DNA of 64,000 nt from Myxococcota bacterium (GTDB lineage Bacteria > Myxococcota > XYA12-FULL-58-9 > JALHOP01): NCBI GenBank assembly GCA_022842935.1, contig JALHOP010000001.1, positions 186,001 to 250,000 on the forward strand. The letters are read 5' to 3'. Below the pieces are notes generated by a model that saw nothing but the letters and a program-made list of their open reading frames with translations, did not search any database and was not told the DNA's origin. Made by a program: the position numbers and the translations under genes. Every line of letters begins with the position of its first letter. Position 1 is the stretch's first letter. Shown here piece by piece: positions 5,209 through 17,074 of this stretch.

Positions 5209-5490
5209 ATGACCGTCGAGCTATCGCAACGCGAGGCCGCGGCGCTCGATGCCTGCGCCCGGCTCATCCACGCCCGTCGGCTGACGACGCCGGCGCTGCT
5301 GCTGCTTGGCGCCATGCGCCCGGTCCAACGCCTCACCGACGCCTCCATGCGGATGGCTTTGCCCTACATCGAAGCCGTCGCCCCAACGGACATGGTGCAA
5401 GCAATAAGGGCGTTGTTGAACAGGCCGAACGGCGGGCGACTGCTTTGTGACCTCTTGTCCCAGCGCTTGGACGTATTGGACCGCGCATGA
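5209..5490 (+). CDS. Small protein opening the DUF6754-type operon
   Basis: 93 residues, cytoplasmic by composition. ATG 5209 (MTVELSQREAAALDACARL) is taken as start; a longer frame from 5185 adds eight non-conserved residues. No strong Shine-Dalgarno is visible. The stop codon overlaps the next start as ATGA (5487-5490), so the two genes are translationally coupled. The protein is helical with two Leu/Met-rich helices (TPALLLLGAMRPVQRLT and ASMRMALPYIEAV). I do not recognise a family. Its position at the head of a five-gene coupled operon suggests that it is a soluble partner or regulator of the membrane proteins that follow. Confidence 0.7.
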   Translation: MTVELSQREAAALDACARLIHARRLTTPALLLLGAMRPVQRLTDASMRMALPYIEAVAPTDMVQAIRALLNRPNGGRLLCDLLSQRLDVLDRA

Positions 5491-8400
5491 GTCGAGTCAT
5501 CGCGGTCGCTATTGTTCTCTTTCCCTTTACTCTCGACGCGCAGACGCCCGCGGTCGAAGCCGTCGCCGAGCGCACACAGGTCGGAAGTCTCGCCCGCACG
5601 GCCGCAGCGTTGCACAACACGCTCGACGTGTATCGCCTGGCGCTTTCAGAGCTCGTGCCCGCGACACACGTCGTGCGCGAAGCGGGGGAGACCGAGGGCG
5701 CATCTCCCGAGACGCCGATCCCGCCGGCCGCAACTGAAGTCTTCGCGCGGCTCGCGCGCGTGGTGCCACTGCGCGCCGCCGCAGAGGCTTTGCCGGCCAT
5801 CAGTCGCGGCTACCATGCCGAGGCCCTCGACGCGCTCGAGGCACTCGCGGCCGCGCGTACGTTGGGAGAGACCGGCGCGCCGCTCAGCGCCCTCTCTCGT
5901 GCTCTCGAGCGACTCGAGCGCGGCGCCGCCGACATCGTCGACTTGTTTTCGCGCCAGCGACCGATGCAGGTCCGTATCGTCGACCCGGAGACGGCCCTCG
6001 ACGATGTAAACGAAGCCCTCGACGAAGTCGCTGCAGCAGAACAGCGCATCGGCGATCTGCGCGCGTCACGGGGAACACCAGCCGACCAGCTGCGCGCCTT
6101 CATGCGTCTCGAGGTCGCGCTTGGTCACGCGCTCGACCTCATCGCCGCCGCCGAGGAGTCGGGTGTGCGCATCGGCTTCGACATGCAGAAGCCGACGGCC
6201 ACGTTCGCACATGTGGCGGGTGAGATGGTGAGTCTTCGCCAAGCCTTGTCGAGTGCCGTGGCGGACCTGACCGTCGCGCCAACGCTTGCTCTCGCGTCGG
6301 TCCATGCGCACGAGACCACAGCGCTCTCCGAAGACGGCAACCAACGCTATCGCAATCTGAGCGTTTCTTTCAGCGGGGCGCGCGCCGCGAACGTCGCGGC
6401 GGTACGCGTTGAACGTCTCGCCAATGCCGACGACGTGACTCTAGCCTTGTTGCAGCAGACCTTGTGTCTCGGCGCCGACTTCGCGCAGGCGCAGGCGCGT
6501 ACGCGCGAGGCCACCGTGGAGCCGTCGCGGGGGCGTCTCACCGATCTGACCCTCACCGAAGGGCGGTATCGCGCGAGCTTCGTCGAGCCGCCTGGGGAAT
6601 CGGCCGTGCGTTCGGAGATCGTGCTCACGCCGGTAAGCGCTTTCGGCGTCACGGGAGAATCCACCCGCGTCCCGGTCGCGCATCTCGCGCGAGACGTCGG
6701 CGAACCGCGCGCCCTGCGGGCTTCACTCGAGCGGGTCGACCCGCGTGAGCCGCGCTTCTATCGCGACTTCGACGCCGTGCGCGTCGCGTGGGCGCGGTCC
6801 ATCAGTGACGTTGCACCGGATGACCGTCTGGCGAGCACGGCCCGCTCGAACCGCGCGAGTGTCGTGACCGCTTATCGCGTTGCCCGTATCTCCGGTCAGA
6901 AGGCCATCGTCGTCGGTAAGACCGCCGCGGGTGTCACCGAGCTCGTCGACCGCCCGAGTGTCGCTGAGCTCGCTGCGGGAGTGCGCTATCGCGTAACTGC
7001 TCTTGCAGGCAACGGGGTCGAGGTCGTCAGCAACGAGGCATGCGCTCCGCAGGTGCAAGTCGATCTTCGCGATGACGTGCAGCTGGCGCGTCTGGGAGCC
7101 GGGAGCTTGTCACGTCCCGCGAGCTTCGAGCGCATCGTCGAACACGAGCTCGAGAGTGACGTCACCCTCGCGAAAGCACGAGCCGCGTTCGAGATGCGCG
7201 GCGCGGCCCAGCAGGAAGCGCTGCTCGCGCGTTGGTGGCGGGGCGTTCCTATGCGTGAGCGGACGGCGTGGCTTGCGCGCTGGCCTTTGCTCATGAGCCA
7301 AACCGAACGCGAGGCTTGGCTCTCGAAGGCCCACGAAGGCATGCGCCCGGAGGACTTCGAAGCATGGGCGCTCCCCGAGCTGTACCTCGCCGACCAACCA
7401 GAAGAGGTGCGCAACGAGGTCGACCGCTGGTGGTCTCTCATCGGCGTCAAGGCGCGCACCGCGAGCTACAACCGCTGGATCGCGAGCCTCTCGTCGAGCC
7501 ACCGCGTCTACGTCGAGCGCAATGCCCGGGCTGCCGGCCAAGAAGGCCTGGATGCGACACGCCCACTGCAAGTCATGGTCTGGTGGGCCTCGCGTGGAGA
7601 GACCGAACACCAGCGGGCCCGCGCCTGGTGGGAACGCCTCGACACCGACGCGCAGCGTTTGCGTATGCAAGCCTGGATGACGCGTCTCGATCCGGTGGTG
7701 CAAGTCGCCGCCCGCTGGCCCGATCTCGAAGTGCGTGCTGTGAGCGAGCGCGACGCGCTCTTCGCTACCGCCTATCGCGACCTGCCTGACGCTCTCTGGC
7801 GGCGCGCGCTCGCGTGGATGGCCTGGGAAAACATGGACAGCGCTGCCCGCGCCGGCATCGTGCGCAGCGAGGTCCCCGCGCTCGCACGACTTGCTGCCCA
7901 GATTGCCTACGCAGTGCGACCACTCGACGCCGGGCTTGGCTTCAATCTTCGCATGTTGCTCGCGTTTTCGGTCTTCTCGACGATATTCGCCGCGGCGGTC
8001 CGTCGCGTCGTCCGCTCGCGCGGAGCCCTGAAGCTGCGTCGCCCCCCGGCGTTCGACGCCTTCGACCGCATGGCCGCTGCGGCACACGCCACTGCCGGGC
8101 CGGTTGTTGCGGTACCCGGCGTCAACTCCGTAAACGATGCGCAGACGCTCGCAGGTCTGTACCTCATCGATCGAGCGGCCGACGTCACGGCGACACACGA
8201 GACGACCCTGGTCGTCGCCGACCGCGAGCCCTTTGTCCGTCATAGCGGTTCCGAAGAAGGCGTGTCGGGGGCCGGCTATGCGCTCGATGAGCACCGCGCC
8301 ATCGCCGCGAACGCCATTCCGTTCTTGCCAAGCGGTCGCGAGGTCATCACGCAGACTCCCGGAACCGCCGCCCTGTTCGTCGGCCGCCTGCCGCCCGAGA

Positions 8401-8654
8401 CCTTGCTGGTCACGAGCGCGCTGCGTCCAGATGCCGTCTCGCTCACCGCCACTGACGAGCACGCGTCTCTCGCGGTCGCGGCTGCGAGCCAAGGCGAGGT
8501 TCTCGTGGGCGACGCCGTGTATGCGGCGGCGGCCGACAGCTCACGCGCGCCTGCGCTGCTTGCTACTGTGCTCGCGGGCGACCGCATGAAGATCCTCCTC
8601 ATCGCGGTTCTCGGGGTGTTGGTGATCTTGGCGAGCAGTGGAGCGTTCGGGTGA
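5487..8654 (+). CDS. Large DUF6754-like membrane protein with FN3-like and Trp-rich regions
   Basis: 1055 residues. Signal peptide at 1-19 (ends TLDAQ). A helical part runs to about 260. About 280-540 is beta-rich and resembles fibronectin-III-like repeats (RYRNLSVSFSGARAANVAAV, GVRYRVTALAGNGVEVVS). About 575-790 is unusually rich in Trp (WW, RW, AW pairs). A transmembrane helix follows at about 818-840, then a domain like the C-terminal DUF6754 domain (FDRMAAAAHATAGPVVAVPG, then NDAQTLAGLYLIDRAADV), and a last helix at 1034-1055. DUF6754 proteins of Chloroflexota, Planctomycetes and archaea have the same order: FN3, TM, then a domain beginning with a GRPVLYVPG-like motif. No function is known. 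The start overlaps the previous gene and its stop overlaps the next (GTGA). Confidence 0.75.
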   Translation: MSRVIAVAIVLFPFTLDAQTPAVEAVAERTQVGSLARTAAALHNTLDVYRLALSELVPATHVVREAGETEGASPETPIPPAATEVFARLARVVPLRAAAEALPAISRGYHAEALDALEALAAARTLGETGAPLSALSRALERLERGAADIVDLFSRQRPMQVRIVDPETALDDVNEALDEVAAAEQRIGDLRASRGTPADQLRAFMRLEVALGHALDLIAAAEESGVRIGFDMQKPTATFAHVAGEMVSLRQALSSAVADLTVAPTLALASVHAHETTALSEDGNQRYRNLSVSFSGARAANVAAVRVERLANADDVTLALLQQTLCLGADFAQAQARTREATVEPSRGRLTDLTLTEGRYRASFVEPPGESAVRSEIVLTPVSAFGVTGESTRVPVAHLARDVGEPRALRASLERVDPREPRFYRDFDAVRVAWARSISDVAPDDRLASTARSNRASVVTAYRVARISGQKAIVVGKTAAGVTELVDRPSVAELAAGVRYRVTALAGNGVEVVSNEACAPQVQVDLRDDVQLARLGAGSLSRPASFERIVEHELESDVTLAKARAAFEMRGAAQQEALLARWWRGVPMRERTAWLARWPLLMSQTEREAWLSKAHEGMRPEDFEAWALPELYLADQPEEVRNEVDRWWSLIGVKARTASYNRWIASLSSSHRVYVERNARAAGQEGLDATRPLQVMVWWASRGETEHQRARAWWERLDTDAQRLRMQAWMTRLDPVVQVAARWPDLEVRAVSERDALFATAYRDLPDALWRRALAWMAWENMDSAARAGIVRSEVPALARLAAQIAYAVRPLDAGLGFNLRMLLAFSVFSTIFAAAVRRVVRSRGALKLRRPPAFDAFDRMAAAAHATAGPVVAVPGVNSVNDAQTLAGLYLIDRAADVTATHETTLVVADREPFVRHSGSEEGVSGAGYALDEHRAIAANAIPFLPSGREVITQTPGTAALFVGRLPPETLLVTSALRPDAVSLTATDEHASLAVAAASQGEVLVGDAVYAAAADSSRAPALLATVLAGDRMKILLIAVLGVLVILASSGAFG

Positions 8655-9277
8655 CCAAGGCAGGAGCCCCCATCGTTTGTGCCATGGTCGCGGCTACCTA
8701 TTGGGCGCTCGAGCCAGTCATCGACGTCGCGCGCGATGGGTGGCTCAAGACGTTTGCCGCCGACCTCGTTGTCGCAATCATCGCTGTCGTGACACTCGTC
8801 GCTATCGCCGGCGTCGTCGCGCGCGAGGGAGGTAAGGTTCTACGGCGCGAAAGCGGACATTTGAGCTCGGCCATCGTGCTCGTTGCCTTCGCCGTGACGT
8901 TCGCCATTGGTGTCGCTCAGGGCCCCGCTGGCGATTGGTTCGTGTGGATCTTCGACTACGTTTACGCGCCGCTCGAGAGCAGCCTGCTTGCACTTGTGGC
9001 GTTCGCGCTCGTCGACACGGCGCTGCGTCGCATGCGCGCTCGCTCTGGCGAGACCGCCCTGATCATCGCCACCGCTGCCATCGTCATGTTGGGTCGGGCG
9101 CCGGCGACCAGCGCGGCCGCAACGCTGCTGACTCCGGTTGCTGACTGGCTCACGCGCGTTCCGAACGTCGCGGGGCAACGCGTGCTGCTCATCGGCGCCG
9201 CTATTGCTGCCTGCTCGACGTTGTTGCGCCTCTTGCTTGGTGTCGAACGCGACTACCTCGGGGAGCGCCGCTCGTGA
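8651..9277 (+). CDS. Polytopic membrane protein of the DUF6754-type operon
   Basis: 208 residues with about six hydrophobic segments, for example DLVVAIIAVVTLVAIAGVV, SSAIVLVAFAVTFAIGV, LLALVAFALV and LLIGAAIAACSTLLRLLLG. Starts at GTG overlapping the previous stop (8651-8654) and ends overlapping the next start (9274-9277). There are no transporter signatures or charged pore residues that I can name. In operons with DUF6754 proteins a polytopic partner of this size is usual as far as I recall. It probably forms a complex with the 5487 and 10116 proteins in the inner membrane. Confidence 0.75.
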   Translation: MTKAGAPIVCAMVAATYWALEPVIDVARDGWLKTFAADLVVAIIAVVTLVAIAGVVAREGGKVLRRESGHLSSAIVLVAFAVTFAIGVAQGPAGDWFVWIFDYVYAPLESSLLALVAFALVDTALRRMRARSGETALIIATAAIVMLGRAPATSAAATLLTPVADWLTRVPNVAGQRVLLIGAAIAACSTLLRLLLGVERDYLGERRS

Positions 9278-10119
9278 CGCGCTGGCTCGCCATCGCTGCT
9301 CTCGTCGTCGCCGTGGCTGTCGGTCTCTGCTCGACGCGTCCCGCGCCCCGCGCGGGCATCGCTCCACAGGTGACTCAAGCGCATGCCGCGATCGCGGAGC
9401 TGACGACCGGCGATCTGCTCGTGCTTGCGGTCGACTTCGACCCCGCCAGCGTTCCCGAGCTTGGCCCCTTCGTGCGCCTTACGCTCGACATCGCTCTCAT
9501 GCGCGGTGCGCGTGTGATTACCGTGAGCCTGACGCCACACGGGGCCATGCTCGCTGAGCGTTTCTTACGTGAGGCTCTCGCCAGTCGCAAAGCGACCTAC
9601 GGTCGCGATGCCATCAACCTGGGGTTCCTCGAAGGGCGGAGCGCCGCTGTCCACCTCACCGGAATCCCACTCCAGCGTATGGCCAGCCGTGATCACGCTG
9701 GCAATGCCCTCGGTGATTTACCGCTCGCTGCCGAGGTCTCTCGCCTCGCGGACGCCGCGTCGTTCGTGGTGGCCGCGAGCGGCGCCCCGGGCGCGTTCGA
9801 GTGGTTGCTGCAGGGGCAGGGGCGATTCGCGCGTAAGTTGGTCATCGCGACGACGAGCATCGATGGGCCGCAGCTAGCGGCGTTTCACGCCAGCGGACAA
9901 ATCTCTGGGCTCGTTGCCGGTGCTCGCGACGTGGCCGCTTTCGCGGACATCGCCGCGAATGACCCCCGATTACGAGGCGATAGCGATGCCGTTGGCCATT
10001 TGCGCGAGCTCGCAGCGCAAATGCGGGCGCAGCGCTGGGCGCATCTCGCGCTCGTTCTCTGCTTGGTCGCGGGTCAGGGCCTCACTCTCTGGCGGGGCCG
10101 CAAGAAGGGGGCTACGTGA
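9274..10119 (+). CDS. Bitopic protein with an alpha/beta domain, DUF6754-type operon
   Basis: 281 residues. One transmembrane helix at each end (about 4-20 and about 256-272) brackets a 230-residue alpha/beta domain. The domain begins TTGDLLVLAVDFDPASVPEL, continues with RGARVITVSLTPHGAMLAE and NLGFLEGRS, and has GQISGLVAGARDVAAFADI near its end. This matches a widespread uncharacterised family I remember as starting with a SFDYDPAS-EL-PM motif and encoded beside DUF6754 proteins. No catalytic residues are evident. It is coupled by 4-bp overlaps on both sides, so the domain probably works in a fixed stoichiometry with its neighbours. Confidence 0.75.
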   Translation: MTRWLAIAALVVAVAVGLCSTRPAPRAGIAPQVTQAHAAIAELTTGDLLVLAVDFDPASVPELGPFVRLTLDIALMRGARVITVSLTPHGAMLAERFLREALASRKATYGRDAINLGFLEGRSAAVHLTGIPLQRMASRDHAGNALGDLPLAAEVSRLADAASFVVAASGAPGAFEWLLQGQGRFARKLVIATTSIDGPQLAAFHASGQISGLVAGARDVAAFADIAANDPRLRGDSDAVGHLRELAAQMRAQRWAHLALVLCLVAGQGLTLWRGRKKGAT

Positions 10120-10877
10120 TCGGGCCGCTCATCGCTTTGCTGCTGACCTTCGCGGTGCTTTCCTTCGTGTGGCGCGACAATCCGCTATATCGGGTGGCGG
10201 AGGGACTGTTCCTGGGGGTCGCCCTCGGCCTCTTCGCGGCCTTCGAGGTACGTCAGGTGCTTCTGCCGCGCATCTGGGACCGTCTTGCCGCAGGTCCCGC
10301 GACGGGCCCCGCCTGGGTGACCACTCTGCTCGTCGTCCTCGGGTTAGCGCTGATGCTCGCCCGGCGAGTGCCACCGCTCGCCTGGCTGGGTCGGCTACCC
10401 GTCGCGGTCGCGGTCGGGTCGCTCGCCGGGATGGCCGCCGCCGGGTTTGCGCGTACGGTGCTCGTTCCGCAGGTCGGGGCATCGGCGGCGTCTCTCGTCA
10501 TCACCGACAGCCTGTCACACGAACGGAGCGTCTGCTTGCTCGAGTCACAGCCGGCCAACGCGCTCACCAATATCGTCTGTAGCTTTGGTCCCTATCTCAA
10601 CCAGCTGCTGATCCTTTTCGCCGTCGTCGCCGGACTCGTGTATTTCGTTTTTTCTCGCCGTGAGAACAAAGGCTTACGGGCAGTGAGTCGATTTGGCGGC
10701 TGGATCGTCATGATGACCTTGGGAGTGACCCTCGGCAGCATGGCGATGGCACATTTTGCCGTCACCATCGGCCGGGCCCAGACGATGATGGAGACGCCAG
10801 GACTTGCCGTTTTGGCCCTGGCAATCGTGGTTTTGACACTATTGTATCTGCGGCGTGACCCGCCCCGGGCCGTCTGA
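10116..10877 (+). CDS. Seven-helix membrane protein closing the DUF6754-type operon
   Basis: 253 residues, about seven hydrophobic helices: IGPLIALLLTFAVLSFVW, GLFLGVALGLFAAFEV, TTLLVVLGLALML, LPVAVAVGSLAGMAAAGFA, LLILFAVVAGLVYFVF, GGWIVMMTLGVTLGSMAMA and LAVLALAIVVLTLLYL. The loop between helices 4 and 5 is polar and contains two cysteines (SVCLLES, NIVCSF). GTG start overlaps the previous stop. It is the last gene of the coupled set; the next gene follows after a gap with a perfect -35-like TTGACA. No known transporter family is recognisable. Confidence 0.75.
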   Translation: MIGPLIALLLTFAVLSFVWRDNPLYRVAEGLFLGVALGLFAAFEVRQVLLPRIWDRLAAGPATGPAWVTTLLVVLGLALMLARRVPPLAWLGRLPVAVAVGSLAGMAAAGFARTVLVPQVGASAASLVITDSLSHERSVCLLESQPANALTNIVCSFGPYLNQLLILFAVVAGLVYFVFSRRENKGLRAVSRFGGWIVMMTLGVTLGSMAMAHFAVTIGRAQTMMETPGLAVLALAIVVLTLLYLRRDPPRAV

Positions 10878-10924: not shown

Positions 10925-11566
10925 ATGCAACACCCCCACGCAGTAAGTAAGCAGGCCTTCGCGAGCCCATTGCTCGAGCGTCTGAGCCGCTGTCATCCGG
11001 TGGTGCCGGCACTCATGTGGGTGCCCGTCTCGGCATATCTATCTTATCTTGGCGTAAGCCAGGGGCTTTCGCTTCTGACATCGGCCGGTCTTTGGGGCGG
11101 CGGCTTTTTCTTGTGGACCTTCTGCGAGTACCTGCTTCATCGCTGGGTCTTCCACTTCGAATTCAAGAACCCGGCCCTTCAGAAGATCTGGTACCCCGTG
11201 CACCGTTTGCACCACGACGTGCAGGAGTGGGATCGCTTGGTCGCGCCGCCGCTCATGTCGGTGCCTCTGTTCTTCGTCTTCCTTGGTCTGTTTTACGCCT
11301 GGCCCGGCGCGCCGTTGATGATGCCGCTCTTCTCGGGCTTCATTGTCGGCTATTTGGGCTACGACTACGTCCACTATTACACACACTTCGCCCGCCCGAC
11401 CTCGTCGATTGGCAAGGGCCTGCGCAAGCGCCACTTGCAGCATCATTTCGCGTTCAAAGATCGATGGTATGGGGTTAGCTCGCCATTGTGGGACTACGTC
11501 TTCGGGACGTACGTCAAAGATGGCGAGCGTTCGCGCCGCCGTGAGGCTTCGGAGTCAGTCGCGTAG
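10925..11566 (+). CDS. Fatty acid (2-)hydroxylase / sterol desaturase family
   Basis: Integral membrane di-iron hydroxylase; in this context it probably 2-hydroxylates the fatty-acyl chain of ceramides. The eight-histidine pattern is present: HRWVFH (about 76-81), HRLHHD, HYYTH and HLQHH, with hydrophobic pairs between them. I use ATG 10925 (213 residues). An in-frame TTG at 10880 coincides with a perfect TTGACA and is more likely a -35 element, although the hexamer 17 bases on (GCAACT) is a poor -10. The C-terminus ends in the family-typical LWDYVFGTY followed by a short basic tail. Serine palmitoyltransferase follows 21 bp downstream, which supports the sphingolipid role. Other FA-hydroxylase members act on sterols or carotenoids. 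Confidence 0.88.
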   Translation: MQHPHAVSKQAFASPLLERLSRCHPVVPALMWVPVSAYLSYLGVSQGLSLLTSAGLWGGGFFLWTFCEYLLHRWVFHFEFKNPALQKIWYPVHRLHHDVQEWDRLVAPPLMSVPLFFVFLGLFYAWPGAPLMMPLFSGFIVGYLGYDYVHYYTHFARPTSSIGKGLRKRHLQHHFAFKDRWYGVSSPLWDYVFGTYVKDGERSRRREASESVA

Positions 11567-11587
11567 CGACCAGGCAGGGATGTAACG

Positions 11588-12823
11588 ATGGATATCTTCG
11601 ATAAGTGCTACGCGTATAACGACCCGCCGCTCGCGCGCTCGCACAACATCTACCCGTATTTTTCGGTCATCGACGAGACCTTCGGCACCGAGGTCATGAT
11701 CGACGGTAAGCGCGTCATCATGGCGGGCTCGAACAACTACATGGGTTTGTCGAGCGACCCACGCGTGAAGGAAGCCGCTATCGCGGCCATCAAGAAATTC
11801 GGCTCGACCTGCTCCGGGTCGCGCTTGCTGAACGGCACGCTATCGCTGCACGCCGAGCTCGAAGAGAAGTTCGCCGCCTTTTTGAAGCGTGATGCGGCTG
11901 CGGTCTTCTCGACCGGCTACACCGCGAACCTGGGCTCGTTGAGCTCGCTTCTCGGCAAGGGCGACATCGTCTACATGGACAAGGGCGATCACGGCTCGAT
12001 CGTCGACGGCGTGCGCTTGGGCGCGGCCGACATGAAGCGCTTCCGTCACAACACGCCCGAGCATCTCGAGCTCTTGTTGCGTGAGGCAGCCCCGGACGCC
12101 GCCAAGATGGTGGTCGTCGACGGTGTCTTCAGTATGGAGGGCGACGTCGCCCCGCTCGACCAGTATGCGGCTCTGCGCAAGCAGTACAATTTCCGCCTCA
12201 TGGTCGACGAGGCGCACAGCATGGGTGTCTTCGGCAAACACGGCCGCGGTACCGCTGAGCACTTCGGTGTCGAAGACGACGTCGACCTCGTCATGGGGAC
12301 GTTCAGCAAGGCCTTCGCATCGCTCGGCGGCGTGATCGCTGGCCCCGCGAAGGTCATCGAGTTCATCAAGCACAAGGCGCGCTCGATGATTTTCCAGGCG
12401 AGCATGACACCTGGAGCCTGTGGCGCTTGCTTGAAGTCGCTCGAAATCGTCCAGGCCGAGCCGGAACGCCGCGAGCGCTTGTTCGCTAACGCGGACCATG
12501 TCCGCAAGGGCTTCAAGGCACTCGGGTTCAACACGCTGCACAGCAACACGCCCGTCGTTCCGGTCGTCATTGGGGATGACCTCAAGACCTTCTCGTTCTG
12601 GCGCGCGTTGCTCGACGCCGGCGTGTTCACGAACCCGGTCATCAGCCCGGCGGTGGCACCTGGACAGCAACTCATCCGCACCTCGTTCATGGCGACGCAC
12701 ACGACCGAGCAGCTCGACCGCGTGCTCGAGACCTTCGACGTGATCGGCCGCAAGTTCGGCATCATCGGCGAGAGCAAGGGGCAGCAGACGAGCTTCGTCA
12801 TCCAGGGTCGTCTCGCCGGCTAG
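11588..12823 (+). CDS. spt: Serine palmitoyltransferase (alpha-oxoamine synthase)
   Basis: PLP enzyme that condenses serine with a long-chain acyl thioester to give 3-ketosphinganine, the first step of sphingolipid synthesis; soluble or peripheral. 411 residues, a typical length. The PLP lysine lies in GTFSKAFASLGG (about K241). VDEAHSMGVFG carries the Asp that binds the pyridine nitrogen, and GDHGSIVDG the ring-stacking His. The whole family also contains KBL, BioF and HemA, which look similar. I assign SPT because of the N-terminal NNYMGLSSDPRV region and because a fatty-acid hydroxylase, a GNAT-type acyltransferase and an epimerase-like reductase lie around it. A GGAT Shine-Dalgarno precedes ATG 11588. 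Confidence 0.9.
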   Translation: MDIFDKCYAYNDPPLARSHNIYPYFSVIDETFGTEVMIDGKRVIMAGSNNYMGLSSDPRVKEAAIAAIKKFGSTCSGSRLLNGTLSLHAELEEKFAAFLKRDAAAVFSTGYTANLGSLSSLLGKGDIVYMDKGDHGSIVDGVRLGAADMKRFRHNTPEHLELLLREAAPDAAKMVVVDGVFSMEGDVAPLDQYAALRKQYNFRLMVDEAHSMGVFGKHGRGTAEHFGVEDDVDLVMGTFSKAFASLGGVIAGPAKVIEFIKHKARSMIFQASMTPGACGACLKSLEIVQAEPERRERLFANADHVRKGFKALGFNTLHSNTPVVPVVIGDDLKTFSFWRALLDAGVFTNPVISPAVAPGQQLIRTSFMATHTTEQLDRVLETFDVIGRKFGIIGESKGQQTSFVIQGRLAG

Positions 12824-12919
12824 AGCTCACGTAAGGTTTCGCGAGCCAACGCGTCGTCGTGACCTGCCGTCACGGCTGAGGCGCGGACCTCTTGCGAGTC
12901 GCCTGCCGATAAGGCGCGC

Positions 12920-13819
12920 ATGTCAGTCCGTACGCCTGCGATTGCCGAGTTGTCGTCTCGACCGGTGACATTGACTCAGCTGGTTCCGCAGGAGCTCTTG
13001 CCCGTACCGGTCGCGGCGCGCGAACCGTCGACGAGCGCCAAGAAGCTCTTCATCCTCGCCGACCGGCTCGTCAGCGACACGCATGAAGCGGCGCTCGGCA
13101 AGGGGAGCTACTTCGGCGAATCAACGCCCCAGTGGCTTCTCAGGACCATGCCGGTTTGGGGTACGGCGCTCGTGGTGGGCGCGGGTGTCGCGCTCGGAAC
13201 CACCTTGGGTTGGGACGAGCCGACTCCGTTTTTCGCGGGCTTGGTCGGTGGCTGCCTATCTTTGGCCGCCATCGGCTTGGGCCTCGAGCGGTGGCAGGGA
13301 CCCGCGCGCGCGAAGCCCATCCCGGTCACCGAAGCGCGCCCGTACCTTGACGCGTTCAAGGCCGGCGAGGCGCAGACCCAGGCCCTGGTGACGCGCCTCG
13401 CGACGAGCGCTTCGAGCCTGGTCGCGGCGAAGGGGGTGGCTGGGCAGGAGTTTCGCCGCCAACTCGACGAGCTCGCTGCCGTGAATGTCCAGCTCGACAG
13501 CGCTGCCACGAACCGCATCGACGCGCTCTGCGAGCTCGCGAACAGCATGCCCCGCAAACATCGGCTCGAGGCAACGTCCACACGTCTCATCCTCGCGGCG
13601 TTCGAAAGGCTCGACGTTGCTGACCGTGCGGAGCTGGCGCCGCTCTTGCTCGCGCACCTGTTCAAAGGCGAACGTTTGCGCTGGGCTTTCCGCGACACAA
13701 CGAGCAGCGCGCAGCTCTACAACGCTCTCATCGCCATGCACCCGAGCGGCGTGACCTCGCGCGAGGAGCTGCAGAAGCTCGTCGCTCCCGTGCCTTCGCA
13801 GACGCGCCCGCACGACTGA
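12920..13819 (+). CDS. Unknown protein with two membrane helices (tandem paralogue 1)
   Basis: 299 residues. The first 40 are disordered and Pro/Ala/Ser-rich with no signal peptide. Two hydrophobic helices follow (VWGTALVVGAGVALGTTLG and FAGLVGGCLSLAAIGLGL), then a helical domain of about 190 residues. That domain is clearly related to the next gene's product: compare ARPYLDAFKAGEAQTQALV, GVAGQEFRRQLDELAAVN and LLAHLFKGERLRWAF with the equivalent parts of the 13933 protein. No Shine-Dalgarno is visible. TGCCGATAAG lies 7 bases before the ATG and could be an extended -10 of a leaderless mRNA. I do not recognise the family. It sits inside the ceramide cluster but need not belong to it. Confidence 0.65.
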   Translation: MSVRTPAIAELSSRPVTLTQLVPQELLPVPVAAREPSTSAKKLFILADRLVSDTHEAALGKGSYFGESTPQWLLRTMPVWGTALVVGAGVALGTTLGWDEPTPFFAGLVGGCLSLAAIGLGLERWQGPARAKPIPVTEARPYLDAFKAGEAQTQALVTRLATSASSLVAAKGVAGQEFRRQLDELAAVNVQLDSAATNRIDALCELANSMPRKHRLEATSTRLILAAFERLDVADRAELAPLLLAHLFKGERLRWAFRDTTSSAQLYNALIAMHPSGVTSREELQKLVAPVPSQTRPHD

Positions 13820-13932
13820 GCACTGATCGGTCAATTCCGCAGCGCTGCGGGCGAGCTTGGCGTTCCACATGCCTGACCCTTCGTCAGAGCGCTGGCGAGC
13901 ATCCGCCCGCCGCTCGCGCCGATATGGTCAGC

Positions 13933-14835
13933 ATGATGACGACCGAAACGCCCGCGGCTATTGCGCCAGTGTCGCGCCTCGCCAGTGGTAGCGTAGGCCT
14001 CTTTGCCGCTGACCTCGGTCGCGGCGCCGTCGTGCCCGTGATGGGCGCGGCATCGAGCCCCGTCGCACGCGGCTTCGCGCTCGATGATGCCATGTGCCGA
14101 GCGACGTCACCCCTTGGCGCTAGCGGCCGGCGGGGCGTGATTGCATTCCTTTCGGCGGGAACGGATGCTAGCGAAACACTGGCGGCTGTCGGCGCTGTTG
14201 CCTCGCTTGTCGGTTGTGGCGGCTTGGGACATGCGGTGTTGGGCGGAGGCGGCGGAGTCCTGCTTGGCCTTCTCGCCGGAGTCTGCCTCATCGGCGCATC
14301 CATTGCGCTCGTGCTACGAACCGATCAGCGCGCTGCCGAGGCCCCTCTCGATGCCCGTCACGTGCAGCCATTCGTCGAAGCGTTTCGGGAAGGCGATGCG
14401 CCAACGCGCGTTCTCGTCGCGACGATGGCCAAGCGTTGGGAAGGTGTGGTGCGGGCGCGCGGAATCGTCGGCCAGCACGCGCGCGCGCAACTCGCCGAGC
14501 TCGCCGCGGCAACTCCGCAGCTCGACGACGCTCGGGCCAAGTCGATCGATGCAGTCGCCGGTGTGCTCGCGGAGCTCCGGGACGAGAACGGCAGGCACGT
14601 GACGGAGCTCGGCAAGGGTTCGTGCGAGAGGCTCATGAGCCTCGTGGCGCAGCTCGTGCCCGAAGACCGTGTGCACGTGAGCGCGTTCTTGCGTGAGCGC
14701 TTGTTCGATGGCGAGCGGCCGCGTCTTAAGGCCGAGGATCAGCCGAGCTATCTGAGGCTCTACGAGGTCGTTAGCGACAAGGCGATGTTCCCGCTCGTGA
14801 CCGCCGCACAGCTCCAGGGCCGCGACGCAGCCTAA
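13933..14835 (+). CDS. Unknown protein with membrane helices (tandem paralogue 2)
   Basis: About 300 residues, a tandem relative of the preceding protein: ARHVQPFVEAFREGDAPTRV, GIVGQHARAQLAELAA and LRERLFDGERPRLKAEDQ align with it. The N-terminal 80 residues are low-complexity and unrelated, followed by a Gly-rich hydrophobic stretch of 60 residues (ETLAAVGAVASLVGCGGLG, VLLGLLAGVCLIGASIALV). I place the start at ATG 13933 (13936 and 13924 are also in frame) because CCGATATG at 13919-13926 resembles a -10 and overlaps the 13924 codon. No Shine-Dalgarno is seen for any of them. Function is unknown. Confidence 0.65.
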   Translation: MMTTETPAAIAPVSRLASGSVGLFAADLGRGAVVPVMGAASSPVARGFALDDAMCRATSPLGASGRRGVIAFLSAGTDASETLAAVGAVASLVGCGGLGHAVLGGGGGVLLGLLAGVCLIGASIALVLRTDQRAAEAPLDARHVQPFVEAFREGDAPTRVLVATMAKRWEGVVRARGIVGQHARAQLAELAAATPQLDDARAKSIDAVAGVLAELRDENGRHVTELGKGSCERLMSLVAQLVPEDRVHVSAFLRERLFDGERPRLKAEDQPSYLRLYEVVSDKAMFPLVTAAQLQGRDAA

Positions 14836-14969
14836 AAAGAGACACGCCGTTAGGCCCTTACGGACCTGGTTTGGTTCGCTTGGCTCGTTCATCCAAGCTC
14901 GAACGCGTAAGCCCAGCCCCTTGCTTTTCGCTCGCCAGTGCGTTCAATCCGGCCGCAGGAGCGACAGCG

Positions 14970-16085
14970 ATGGTTGAGATCACGACGGTCACTGGTAAGG
15001 GCGACCGCGACGCCTTCATCAAGTTTCCCTGGTCCATCTACGCGGGCGATACGCGTTGGGCACCGCCGCTCCTCATCGAGCGCAAAGAGTTTCTCGACAC
15101 CAAGAAGAACCCCTTCTTCGAATACGCCGAGGTCGCGCACTTTCTCGCTAAGCGCTCTGGTAAGGTCGTCGGCCGTATCAGCGCCGTTCACGACAAGAAG
15201 TACAACGACTTTCACGGCGTCCAACACGTTGGCTTCGGCATGTTCGAGGCCGTGAACGACGTCGAGGTGTCACGGGCTTTGTTTGCCGCTGTCGAGAAAT
15301 GGGGCAGGGAGCGCGGGCTCGCGGCAGTCTGGGGACCCGTGAGCTTCTCGACGAACCACGAGTGCGGGCTTCTGGTCGACGGCTACGACGACATGCCGGC
15401 CATCATGATGACGTACAACCCCACCTACTACGAAAGGCTCGTCGAGGACGCTGGCTACGCGAAGTCGCGCGACTTGTGGGCCTGGGAGCTGTCCGCGCAC
15501 GCATCGGTCCCCGAGAAGATTGGCCGTATCGCCGAGAAGATCCGCGAGCGCGAAGGCATCGTGGTGCGCGGCGCCAACATGAAGAAGTGGGACGAAGAGG
15601 TCGACCTCGCTTTCCAGATCTACAATGAGGCCTGGGAGAAGAACTGGGGCTTCGTGCCCATGTCGCGCGCCGAATTCGATAAGCTCGCCAAGGAAATGAA
15701 GCAGATCGTCAAGCCCGAGCTCGTCCTCATCGCCGAGGTTAAGGGCGAGGTCGCCGGTTTCTCGTTCACCATTCCCGACGTTAACCCAGCCATCGCCAAG
15801 GCCAACGGGCGTCTTTTGCCGTTTGGGCTGCCGAAGATGCTCATGCACTTGAAGAAGTGCGACCGCGCGCGCCTGGTGCTCCTCGGCATGCGGCCGAAGT
15901 TCCGCAAGCGCGGTATCGACGCGATCCTCTACAAGGACACGCTCGAGAAAGCTGGCAAGCTCGGTTTCCGTCGCGGCGAGATTGGCTGGACGCTCGACAA
16001 CAACGACCTCGTCAATCGAGCCATCGAGAGCATGGGCGGCAAGAAGTCGAAGACGTACCGCATGTACGAGAAGTCGCTCTCGTGA
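14970..16085 (+). CDS. cerS: GNAT-superfamily acyltransferase, probable bacterial ceramide synthase
   Basis: 371 residues. N-acyltransferase fold; probably transfers a fatty-acyl group to the amine of 3-ketosphinganine (bacterial CerS, which evolved separately from the eukaryotic enzyme). The N-terminal half has conserved features such as FPWSIYAGDTRWAPPLL and VWGPVSFSTNHECGLLVDG. The C-terminal GNAT half carries ELVLIAEVKGEVAGFSF and GMRPKFRKRGIDAILYK, an acyl-CoA pyrophosphate-binding-like loop. ATG 14970 has AGGAG at 14956-14960; the longer frame from 14871 is not conserved-looking. The stop overlaps the next start (GTGA). The link to ceramide rests on context (SPT upstream, CerR-like reductase coupled downstream), as in Caulobacter, and on recollection of the family. 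Confidence 0.75.
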   Translation: MVEITTVTGKGDRDAFIKFPWSIYAGDTRWAPPLLIERKEFLDTKKNPFFEYAEVAHFLAKRSGKVVGRISAVHDKKYNDFHGVQHVGFGMFEAVNDVEVSRALFAAVEKWGRERGLAAVWGPVSFSTNHECGLLVDGYDDMPAIMMTYNPTYYERLVEDAGYAKSRDLWAWELSAHASVPEKIGRIAEKIREREGIVVRGANMKKWDEEVDLAFQIYNEAWEKNWGFVPMSRAEFDKLAKEMKQIVKPELVLIAEVKGEVAGFSFTIPDVNPAIAKANGRLLPFGLPKMLMHLKKCDRARLVLLGMRPKFRKRGIDAILYKDTLEKAGKLGFRRGEIGWTLDNNDLVNRAIESMGGKKSKTYRMYEKSLS

Positions 16086-17074
16086 AGGCGCTCGTGACCG
16101 GCGCTAACGGCTTCGTTGGCACGCATCTCGTCGAGGCGCTGATTGAGCGTGGGCACGACGTGCGGGCACTGGTGCGAAAGACGAGCGACCTTACGCATCT
16201 GCCGAGAGAACGCGTCGAGCTTGCCTACGGCGATGTTACCGATGCAGCAAGCCTGCCGTCCGCGATGGCGGGCATAGACGTCGTCTATCATGTCGCGGGT
16301 ATTACGAAGGCTCGTTCGCTCGCCGAGTTCGTGCGCGTGAACCGCGACGGGACCACCAATGTCATGTCCGCTGCGGCGGATATGGAGAGGCCCCCGAAGG
16401 TCGTCTTCGTCTCGTCTATCGCCGCTGCTGGCCCGTGTGGCACTGACCGACCACTCGAGGAAGGTGACGCCTGCAAGCCCGTGAGCCGCTACGGCACTAG
16501 TAAGGCGCTGGCCGAAGAGAAGGTGCGCGAGTACGCCGCGAGAGTTCCAGTCACGATCGTTCGGCCGCCCATTGTCTATGGGCCGCGCGACCGCGACGTG
16601 TTCGAGCTGTTCAAAATGGCTGCGGGTGGGCTCGTCGTGCAAGCGGGATTCGCGGCGCGACGCTTTTCCGTCGTGCACGTCCACGATCTCGCGGTCGGCC
16701 TTGCCCTTGTGGGCGAGCGCGGGGCCACCTTGAGCGAGGAAGACGCTGGACGCGGGATCTACTACATCGCCGACGACGGCCCCTTCTTGTGGCGCGAGCT
16801 CGGCGAGGCGGCAGCTGCGGGCTTCGGTCGGCGCGCGCGCACCATCCGGGTGCCAGACGTCATCACCTTTATCGCCGCGTACATCGGCGAGCTCATCGGC
16901 ATGATCCGCAAGAAGCCGTTCGTTGTGAACCTCGACAAGGCGCGCGAGGGGACGGCTGGCCACTGGGTGTGCAGCTCGGCGCGTGCGCGCGAGCTTGGCT
17001 TTGCTGTAGCGAAGCCACTTGGCGAGCGCTTCCGCGAGACAGCCGTTTGGTATCGCGACAACGGCTGGATCTGA
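16082..17074 (+). CDS. cerR: NAD(P)-dependent epimerase/reductase, probable ceramide reductase CerR
   Basis: 330 residues, extended SDR family. TGANGFVGTHL at the N-terminus is the nucleotide-binding GxxGxxG loop, and SRYGTSKALAEE holds the catalytic YxxxK (about Y137/K141). VYHVAGITK and VTIVRPPIVYGPRD are also typical. A hydrophobic segment near residue 265 (VITFIAAYIGELIGMI) may anchor it to the membrane. GTG 16082 overlaps the stop of the acyltransferase gene, so the two are translationally coupled. In Caulobacter an enzyme of this class, CerR, reduces the 3-keto group of ceramide after N-acylation, which fits this gene order. NAD-epimerases of sugar metabolism are the alternative. Confidence 0.8.
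   Translation: MKALVTGANGFVGTHLVEALIERGHDVRALVRKTSDLTHLPRERVELAYGDVTDAASLPSAMAGIDVVYHVAGITKARSLAEFVRVNRDGTTNVMSAAADMERPPKVVFVSSIAAAGPCGTDRPLEEGDACKPVSRYGTSKALAEEKVREYAARVPVTIVRPPIVYGPRDRDVFELFKMAAGGLVVQAGFAARRFSVVHVHDLAVGLALVGERGATLSEEDAGRGIYYIADDGPFLWRELGEAAAAGFGRRARTIRVPDVITFIAAYIGELIGMIRKKPFVVNLDKAREGTAGHWVCSSARARELGFAVAKPLGERFRETAVWYRDNGWI

Follow-up and report, generated by a model that had tools for sequence, protein, structure and literature searches.

The systems closest to the locus described here are the ceramide genes of Caulobacter crescentus and those of the myxobacteria. In Caulobacter, spt is CC_1162, cerR is CC_1164 and cerS is CC_1154, and the three do not form a single spt-cerS-cerR run (PMC9386255, PMC11324152); two models of the pathway have been published, and acylation precedes reduction in one of them (PMC11087976, PMC11324152). 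The yghO gene is listed as an ortholog of CC_1154, and the serine palmitoyltransferases (SPTs) of the Bacteroidetes and of the delta type (Myxococcus, Stigmatella, Sorangium) are grouped separately from those of the Rhodobacteria, which depend on AcpR (PMC9386255). Functional FA2H-like 2-hydroxylases of myxobacteria are reported in a review (PMC10002949) that cites Ring, Schwar and Bode (2009), a paper whose title connects 2-hydroxy acids with sphingolipids; the 2-hydroxy link in myxobacteria is thus already known. We have analyzed a stretch of 64,000 nucleotides from a Myxococcota bacterium (hereafter the window; genome G000, contig C1, 186001-250000), whose genome comprises 6.28 Mb in 46 contigs. 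Judged by homology and by structure models, the window very probably carries a myxobacterial-type ceramide cluster with a 2-hydroxylating, Scs7-like enzyme. The genes, in window coordinates, are as follows.

10925..11566, + strand: fatty-acid hydroxylase (FAH), 213 amino acids; PF04116 FA_hydroxylase, E 1.1e-18
11588..12823, + strand: putative serine palmitoyltransferase (Spt), Bacteroidetes/delta type, 411 amino acids; Aminotran_1_2, SPT models on top
12920..13819, + strand: orfA, protein of unknown function; hydrophobic segments, read by eye as two membrane helices; unmatched in Pfam and NCBIfam
13924..14835, + strand: orfB, second copy of the orfA family; 36% identity to orfA over 171 amino acids
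14970..16085, + strand: putative ceramide synthase (bCerS/YghO family), tandem GNAT, 371 amino acids; GNAT PF00583, 4.3e-07
16082..17074, + strand: putative ceramide reductase CerR, extended short-chain dehydrogenase/reductase (SDR), 330 amino acids; NAD-dependent epimerase PF01370, 1.9e-34

Gene content, gene order, family membership and the recurrence of the neighbourhood are observed, and the folds of CerS and of the hydroxylase are predicted. All four ceramide-cluster genes are open reading frames of the + strand at the positions given in an earlier note on this DNA, and a purpose-built codon-usage gene caller (trained in part on these same genes) calls them too. SPT starts 21 bp past the hydroxylase stop, and CerS and CerR share positions 16082-16085, the 4-bp overlap already described. 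The note had called the cluster compact; the four genes stand, but the cluster is less compact than that, as orfA and orfB, which it did not mention, lie between SPT and CerS. Rfam gave no match anywhere in the window. The identities proposed for SPT, CerS and CerR are borne out by the family, PDB and homolog comparisons that follow.

The product of the 11588 gene scores highest with SPT models of NCBIfam (NF047600, 492 bits; a second SPT model, 400); the models for BioF (380) and glycine C-acetyltransferase (357) score lower. Its best PDB matches are the SPT entries 3a2b/8guh (9e-117, 393.6 bits), followed at a distance by a dual BioF/KBL entry (2.8e-89) and by single-activity KBL entries (6.6e-72 or weaker). 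The matches also include the cysteate-C-fatty acyltransferase 28eh, at 234.6 bits, and 1-deoxyceramides have been reported in bacteria (PMC11334938), both of which would fit a related non-ceramide lipid of the sulfonolipid/capnine or 1-deoxyceramide type, made by an alpha-oxoamine synthase acting on cysteate or alanine; however, with the SPT entries scoring far higher in the PDB and SPT models topping NCBIfam, we regard such a product as very improbable. In a careful tree of 17 rows, a split with support of 98/100 divides the SPTs from E. coli Kbl, BioF and the KBL of the genome itself. The window SPT belongs there to a set of seven rows (96/93), its companions being one actinobacterium, Bailinhaonella, and five genomes from its own phylum (a 76-row SPT tree was built only as a quick tree). 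Placing the window SPT with two rhodobacterial SPTs gave p 0.0447 in the approximately unbiased (AU) test. On its sequence, the window SPT is assigned to the Bacteroidetes/delta-type subgroup and not to the AcpR-dependent Rhodobacteria. The genome's own KBL is a separate gene that adjoins a zinc alcohol dehydrogenase, which reads as Tdh; since this other close SPT homolog sits beside a presumed Tdh, the KBL of the genome is accounted for. As a separate observation, a C-terminal extension of about 103-131 amino acids (..DAVETLTWRAxNLxPxDL..) is conserved on the SPT in 29 of 73 rows, nearly all from Myxococcota (L033-L050, L068-L079, L168, L169); the window SPT is without it.

The product of the 14970 gene is a full-length homolog of E. 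coli YghO (34% identity over residues 1-370, E 1e-67) and of a Sphingomonas plasmid protein (36.7%), and its nearest named relatives (among at least 581 confirmed loci) are mostly from Myxococcota. No bCerS relative was found among PDB structures by sequence search (best E 0.47). The AF2 model, built from an alignment of 51 rows (pLDDT 94.4), is predicted to be a tandem GNAT: tandem GNATs lead the Foldseek list (7q3a on top, 2.3e-14) and the VIA list (best Z 24.0 over 304 residues, 3.6 A), where they are followed by N-myristoyltransferases (Z about 16), which likewise move a long acyl chain. Full-length YghO-family homology, a GNAT fold (PF00583 and the model) and SPT and CerR as neighbours are thus all found for this protein. 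It groups with CerS/YghO homologs; a grouping with unrelated GNATs was part of what the earlier note had named as refuting its reading. Most deep forks of the CerS tree are open, and the window row is in no starred set. In the same tree, actinobacterial CerS genes (Bailinhaonella, L120 7474-11073; Streptomyces plasmid, L177 5763-10289) branch with Myxococcaceae rows, the pair having a Shimodaira-Hasegawa-like approximate likelihood ratio (SH-aLRT) support of 99 with 88 and 98 at the forks above, a placement that suggests gene transfer. Two closely spaced CerS-like genes occur in several Myxococcota genomes (L037, L040, G093-G101, G130, G131), some of which have CerR between the two; the second gene would be a second N-acyltransferase. 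What looked like a fusion of SPT and CerS in an Ignavibacterium bin (L146) was discarded, as direct translation shows a stop codon between the genes.

CerR is an extended SDR in the company of CerS and SPT, and its homologs stand directly after CerS in many Myxococcota loci, with 38-44% identity. Its Rossmann glycine motif begins at residue 7, leaving by eye no room for a signal peptide. Because Caulobacter CerR is reported to be periplasmic yet has no predicted transmembrane segment (PMC11087976), the compartment of the window CerR cannot be inferred from these features.

The hydroxylase has PF04116 together with the four histidine motifs of the FA2H/Scs7 family (HxxxxH, HxxHH, HxxxH and HxxHH), which all 16 rows of the alignment (a few being duplicates) keep. 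Yeast Scs7 is its sole sequence match in the PDB (E 6.7e-19). The model is weak (pLDDT 68.2, from an alignment of four rows), and Foldseek with it again returns Scs7 (E 2.2e-07, TM 0.73 over the query) and no other match below E 2. That only Scs7 is matched favours 2-hydroxylation but is no proof of it, as other PF04116 enzymes may simply have no structures. Sterol desaturase/SUR2-type enzymes, which are members of the same PF04116 family, bring in a second reading, in which the ceramide core is the same and the hydroxylase acts on the long-chain base (at C4, phytosphingosine type) rather than on the acyl 2-position. The 21 bp between hydroxylase and SPT suit either substrate, and the Bailinhaonella hydroxylase overlaps SPT and not CerS. 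Scs7, the only protein matched by both sequence and fold, is a ceramide fatty-acid hydroxylase, a weak discrimination given that no SUR2 structure appeared; the characterised myxobacterial relatives, moreover, are 2-hydroxylases (PMC10002949), and we consider action on the base unlikely. On the Scs7 match and the myxobacterial enzymes, 2-hydroxylation is the likeliest role, in line with the 2-hydroxy ceramides that the earlier note had predicted. A literature search found no paper on a hydroxylase-ceramide operon in bacteria, with subscription journals mostly outside its coverage, so that absence from print is not shown.

The neighbourhood was followed in 80 named CerS loci, kept from the larger confirmed set and varying in length, so that neighbour counts are lower bounds, and in a phylum sample of 179 genomes that includes the window genome. 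SPT stands near at least 54 of the 80 named loci and CerR near at least 45. A CerS relative is present in at least 136 of the 179 genomes and an FAH relative in at least 127; besides the window genome, at least four (G039, G040, G041 and G043) have FAH within 2 kb of CerS, where a rough estimate, allowing each FAH 10 kb in 7 Mb, predicts well under one by chance. Beyond the phylum, the SPT and FAH genes of Bailinhaonella share 4 bp. In a Spartobacteria bin, FAH precedes an SPT-like gene, which falls outside the main SPT clade, and after that come a CDP-alcohol phosphatidyltransferase and CerS. On a Roseomonas plasmid, a gene annotated as sterol desaturase, whose product is 28% identical to the window FAH (7e-13), overlaps CerS by 4 bp; on an Acidisoma plasmid, a second gene with this annotation adjoins SPT, by annotation only.

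Several observations weigh against a ceramide cluster with its own hydroxylase. The 492 bits of the SPT lie below the curated NCBIfam equivalog cut-off of 640, and, the tree split notwithstanding, the AU test does not reject joining the window SPT to Kbl/BioF (p 0.278); the model scores and the tree speak against the grouping with KBL/BioF that the earlier note had set as part of its refuter. FAH is near only three of the 80 named CerS loci (a lower bound; L079, one of the three, and the G043 locus are on one and the same contig), so that most CerS clusters do without a hydroxylase, and elsewhere in the phylum the FAH genes are mostly, among the matches listed, on other contigs or far from CerS. 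Moreover, none of the seven other genomes of the order has a close CerS (the best match has E 9.1e-23 and 24% identity) or a close SPT (36% identity at best), and no near relative confirms the cluster; because the order mates are without close SPT and CerS, horizontal gain of the cluster was considered. The scatter of FAH genes away from CerS, along with the start of the hydroxylase 47 bp after the same-strand gene 10116-10877, would also suit a hydroxylase that ends the upstream run (5487-10877), lies beside SPT by accident and serves another lipid. This we judge improbable, as the distance to SPT is only 21 bp and FAH recurs beside SPT or CerS in the f15 genomes, in Bailinhaonella and in the Spartobacteria bin and, by annotation, in Roseomonas (CerS) and Acidisoma (SPT).

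We thus favour a ceramide pathway with a 2-hydroxylase; all of its catalytic steps are inferred, as are the acyl donor and hydroxylation at the 2-position. Spt would condense serine and a fatty acyl thioester (acyl-CoA being the likeliest) into 3-ketodihydrosphingosine, the tandem-GNAT CerS would place a second fatty acid onto the amine, and CerR would reduce the ketone before or after N-acylation. The Scs7-like di-metal hydroxylase would add a 2-hydroxyl to the fatty acid or to the N-acyl chain. N-acylation before reduction, which the earlier note took as established in Caulobacter, is one of two models (PMC11087976, PMC11324152), between which gene order cannot decide.

The window holds no match to an AasR-like ligase, a phosphopantetheine-binding domain or an AcpR-like protein, which agrees with the earlier remark that the acyl carrier protein (ACP) and acyl-ACP synthetase of Caulobacter are missing from it. 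Their absence is, however, no gap, because the window SPT is of the Bacteroidetes/delta-type subgroup rather than that of the AcpR-dependent Rhodobacteria and because the best ACP and ligase candidates of the genome are in a type III polyketide synthase (PKS) cluster. The best AasR match in the genome is a fatty acyl-AMP ligase (FAAL; 38%, 2.8e-92) on contig C10, and the AcpR query reaches only 2.1e-4. At the FAAL locus (L164 6255-10903) a chalcone/stilbene-synthase-like (type III PKS-like) gene, an ICMT-type methyltransferase, an ACP, the FAAL and an FAD enzyme stand in a row, and the contig C10 pair was for this reason rejected as an AasR/AcpR pair serving the SPT from elsewhere in the genome. 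AcpR and AasR accompanying SPT, as in the rhodobacterial system, are not found in the window genome. The AasR/AcpR homologs of myxobacteria may belong to type III PKS-like clusters rather than to sphingolipid synthesis. Distant AcpR homologs have nevertheless been noted in Myxococcus, Stigmatella and Sorangium genomes (PMC9386255), which argues against a clean split by donor.

The ceramide synthases themselves offer a further lead. Motif A is the CoA-binding motif of the GNAT family. The window CerS has an intact R-x-x-G CoA-type loop (FRKRGIDA), and the motif-A loop is kept in some form in 108 of 118 CerS rows (not independent, and some identical). The ten rows without it are all nine Pseudomonadota rows of the YghO type, whose loop contains inserted residues, and a single row from the Ignavibacteria (L091), with A in place of G; the distant homolog of Ensifer, also of the Pseudomonadota, keeps it. 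Genes near the nine loop-less Pseudomonadota CerS include, by annotation, ACP and FAAL in four cases, ACP only in one and FAAL only in one; one has unlabelled genes nearby and two have neither. The difference in the loop suggests different acyl donors among ceramide synthases, as a lead only, since the nine rows may share one ancestral loss. There may, tentatively, be two donor classes: enzymes that keep the loop (R/Q-x-x-G) would use acyl-CoA, and those of the Pseudomonadota (Rhodobacteria) type, which lost it with a three-residue insertion, would use acyl-ACP, paralleling the way in which their SPTs depend on AcpR/AasR. On this view, the window cluster would encode a wholly CoA-driven 2-hydroxy-ceramide pathway, a proposal that we hold to be possible rather than probable. 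A literature search on GNAT/ACP and ceramide synthase, with subscription journals again mostly outside its coverage, showed nothing on donor motifs of bCerS among the papers listed.

The two genes between SPT and CerS, orfA and orfB, are paralogues (E 1e-19 for their alignment); at the thresholds applied, neither Pfam nor NCBIfam matches them, one sub-cut-off hit aside. Their family has four copies in the window genome, with weak matches in two of the 178 other genomes. The remaining two copies (C9:290849-291631 and C21:46884-47675) lie among seemingly unrelated, non-sphingolipid-like genes, and a part for orfA and orfB in the pathway was for that reason judged unlikely; they are probably lineage-specific bystanders outside it.

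The core genes and their chemistry are already known and the enzymes are of known kinds; the find is sound and largely ordinary. Its interest is that it would extend sphingolipid synthesis to a lineage in which the seven other genomes sampled from the order are without close homologs, that it joins a hydroxylase to ceramide genes, and that it offers a candidate sequence marker, open to testing, for the acyl donor used by bacterial ceramide synthases.

Compared with known systems, the window shares the three core enzyme types with Caulobacter crescentus (CC_1154, CC_1162-1165; by description, with YghO compared in sequence) but differs from it in that Caulobacter has AcpR and AasR beside spt, another gene order and an SPT of another subgroup. 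The match to the Caulobacter order claimed earlier does not hold, since cerS (CC_1154) is there apart from spt and cerR; the window order is instead the common one of Myxococcota. Indeed, many loci of the Myxococcaceae and their relatives (Myxococcus, Corallococcus, Archangiaceae) have the same SPT-CerS-CerR genes in the same order and strand, with identities of 53-65% for SPT, 50-60% for CerS and 38-44% for CerR. They differ from the window in the C-terminal extension (about 103-131 amino acids) on their SPT and in having, among the loci fetched, no orfA or orfB and, except for the f15 loci, no hydroxylase. The window hydroxylase resembles yeast Scs7p (4zr0/4zr1) in sequence, predicted fold and histidine motifs, although the bacterial protein is without the cytochrome b5 domain, and with the FA2H-like 2-hydroxylases of myxobacteria (PMC10002949) it shares the kind of organism, the histidine motifs and the link to sphingolipids.

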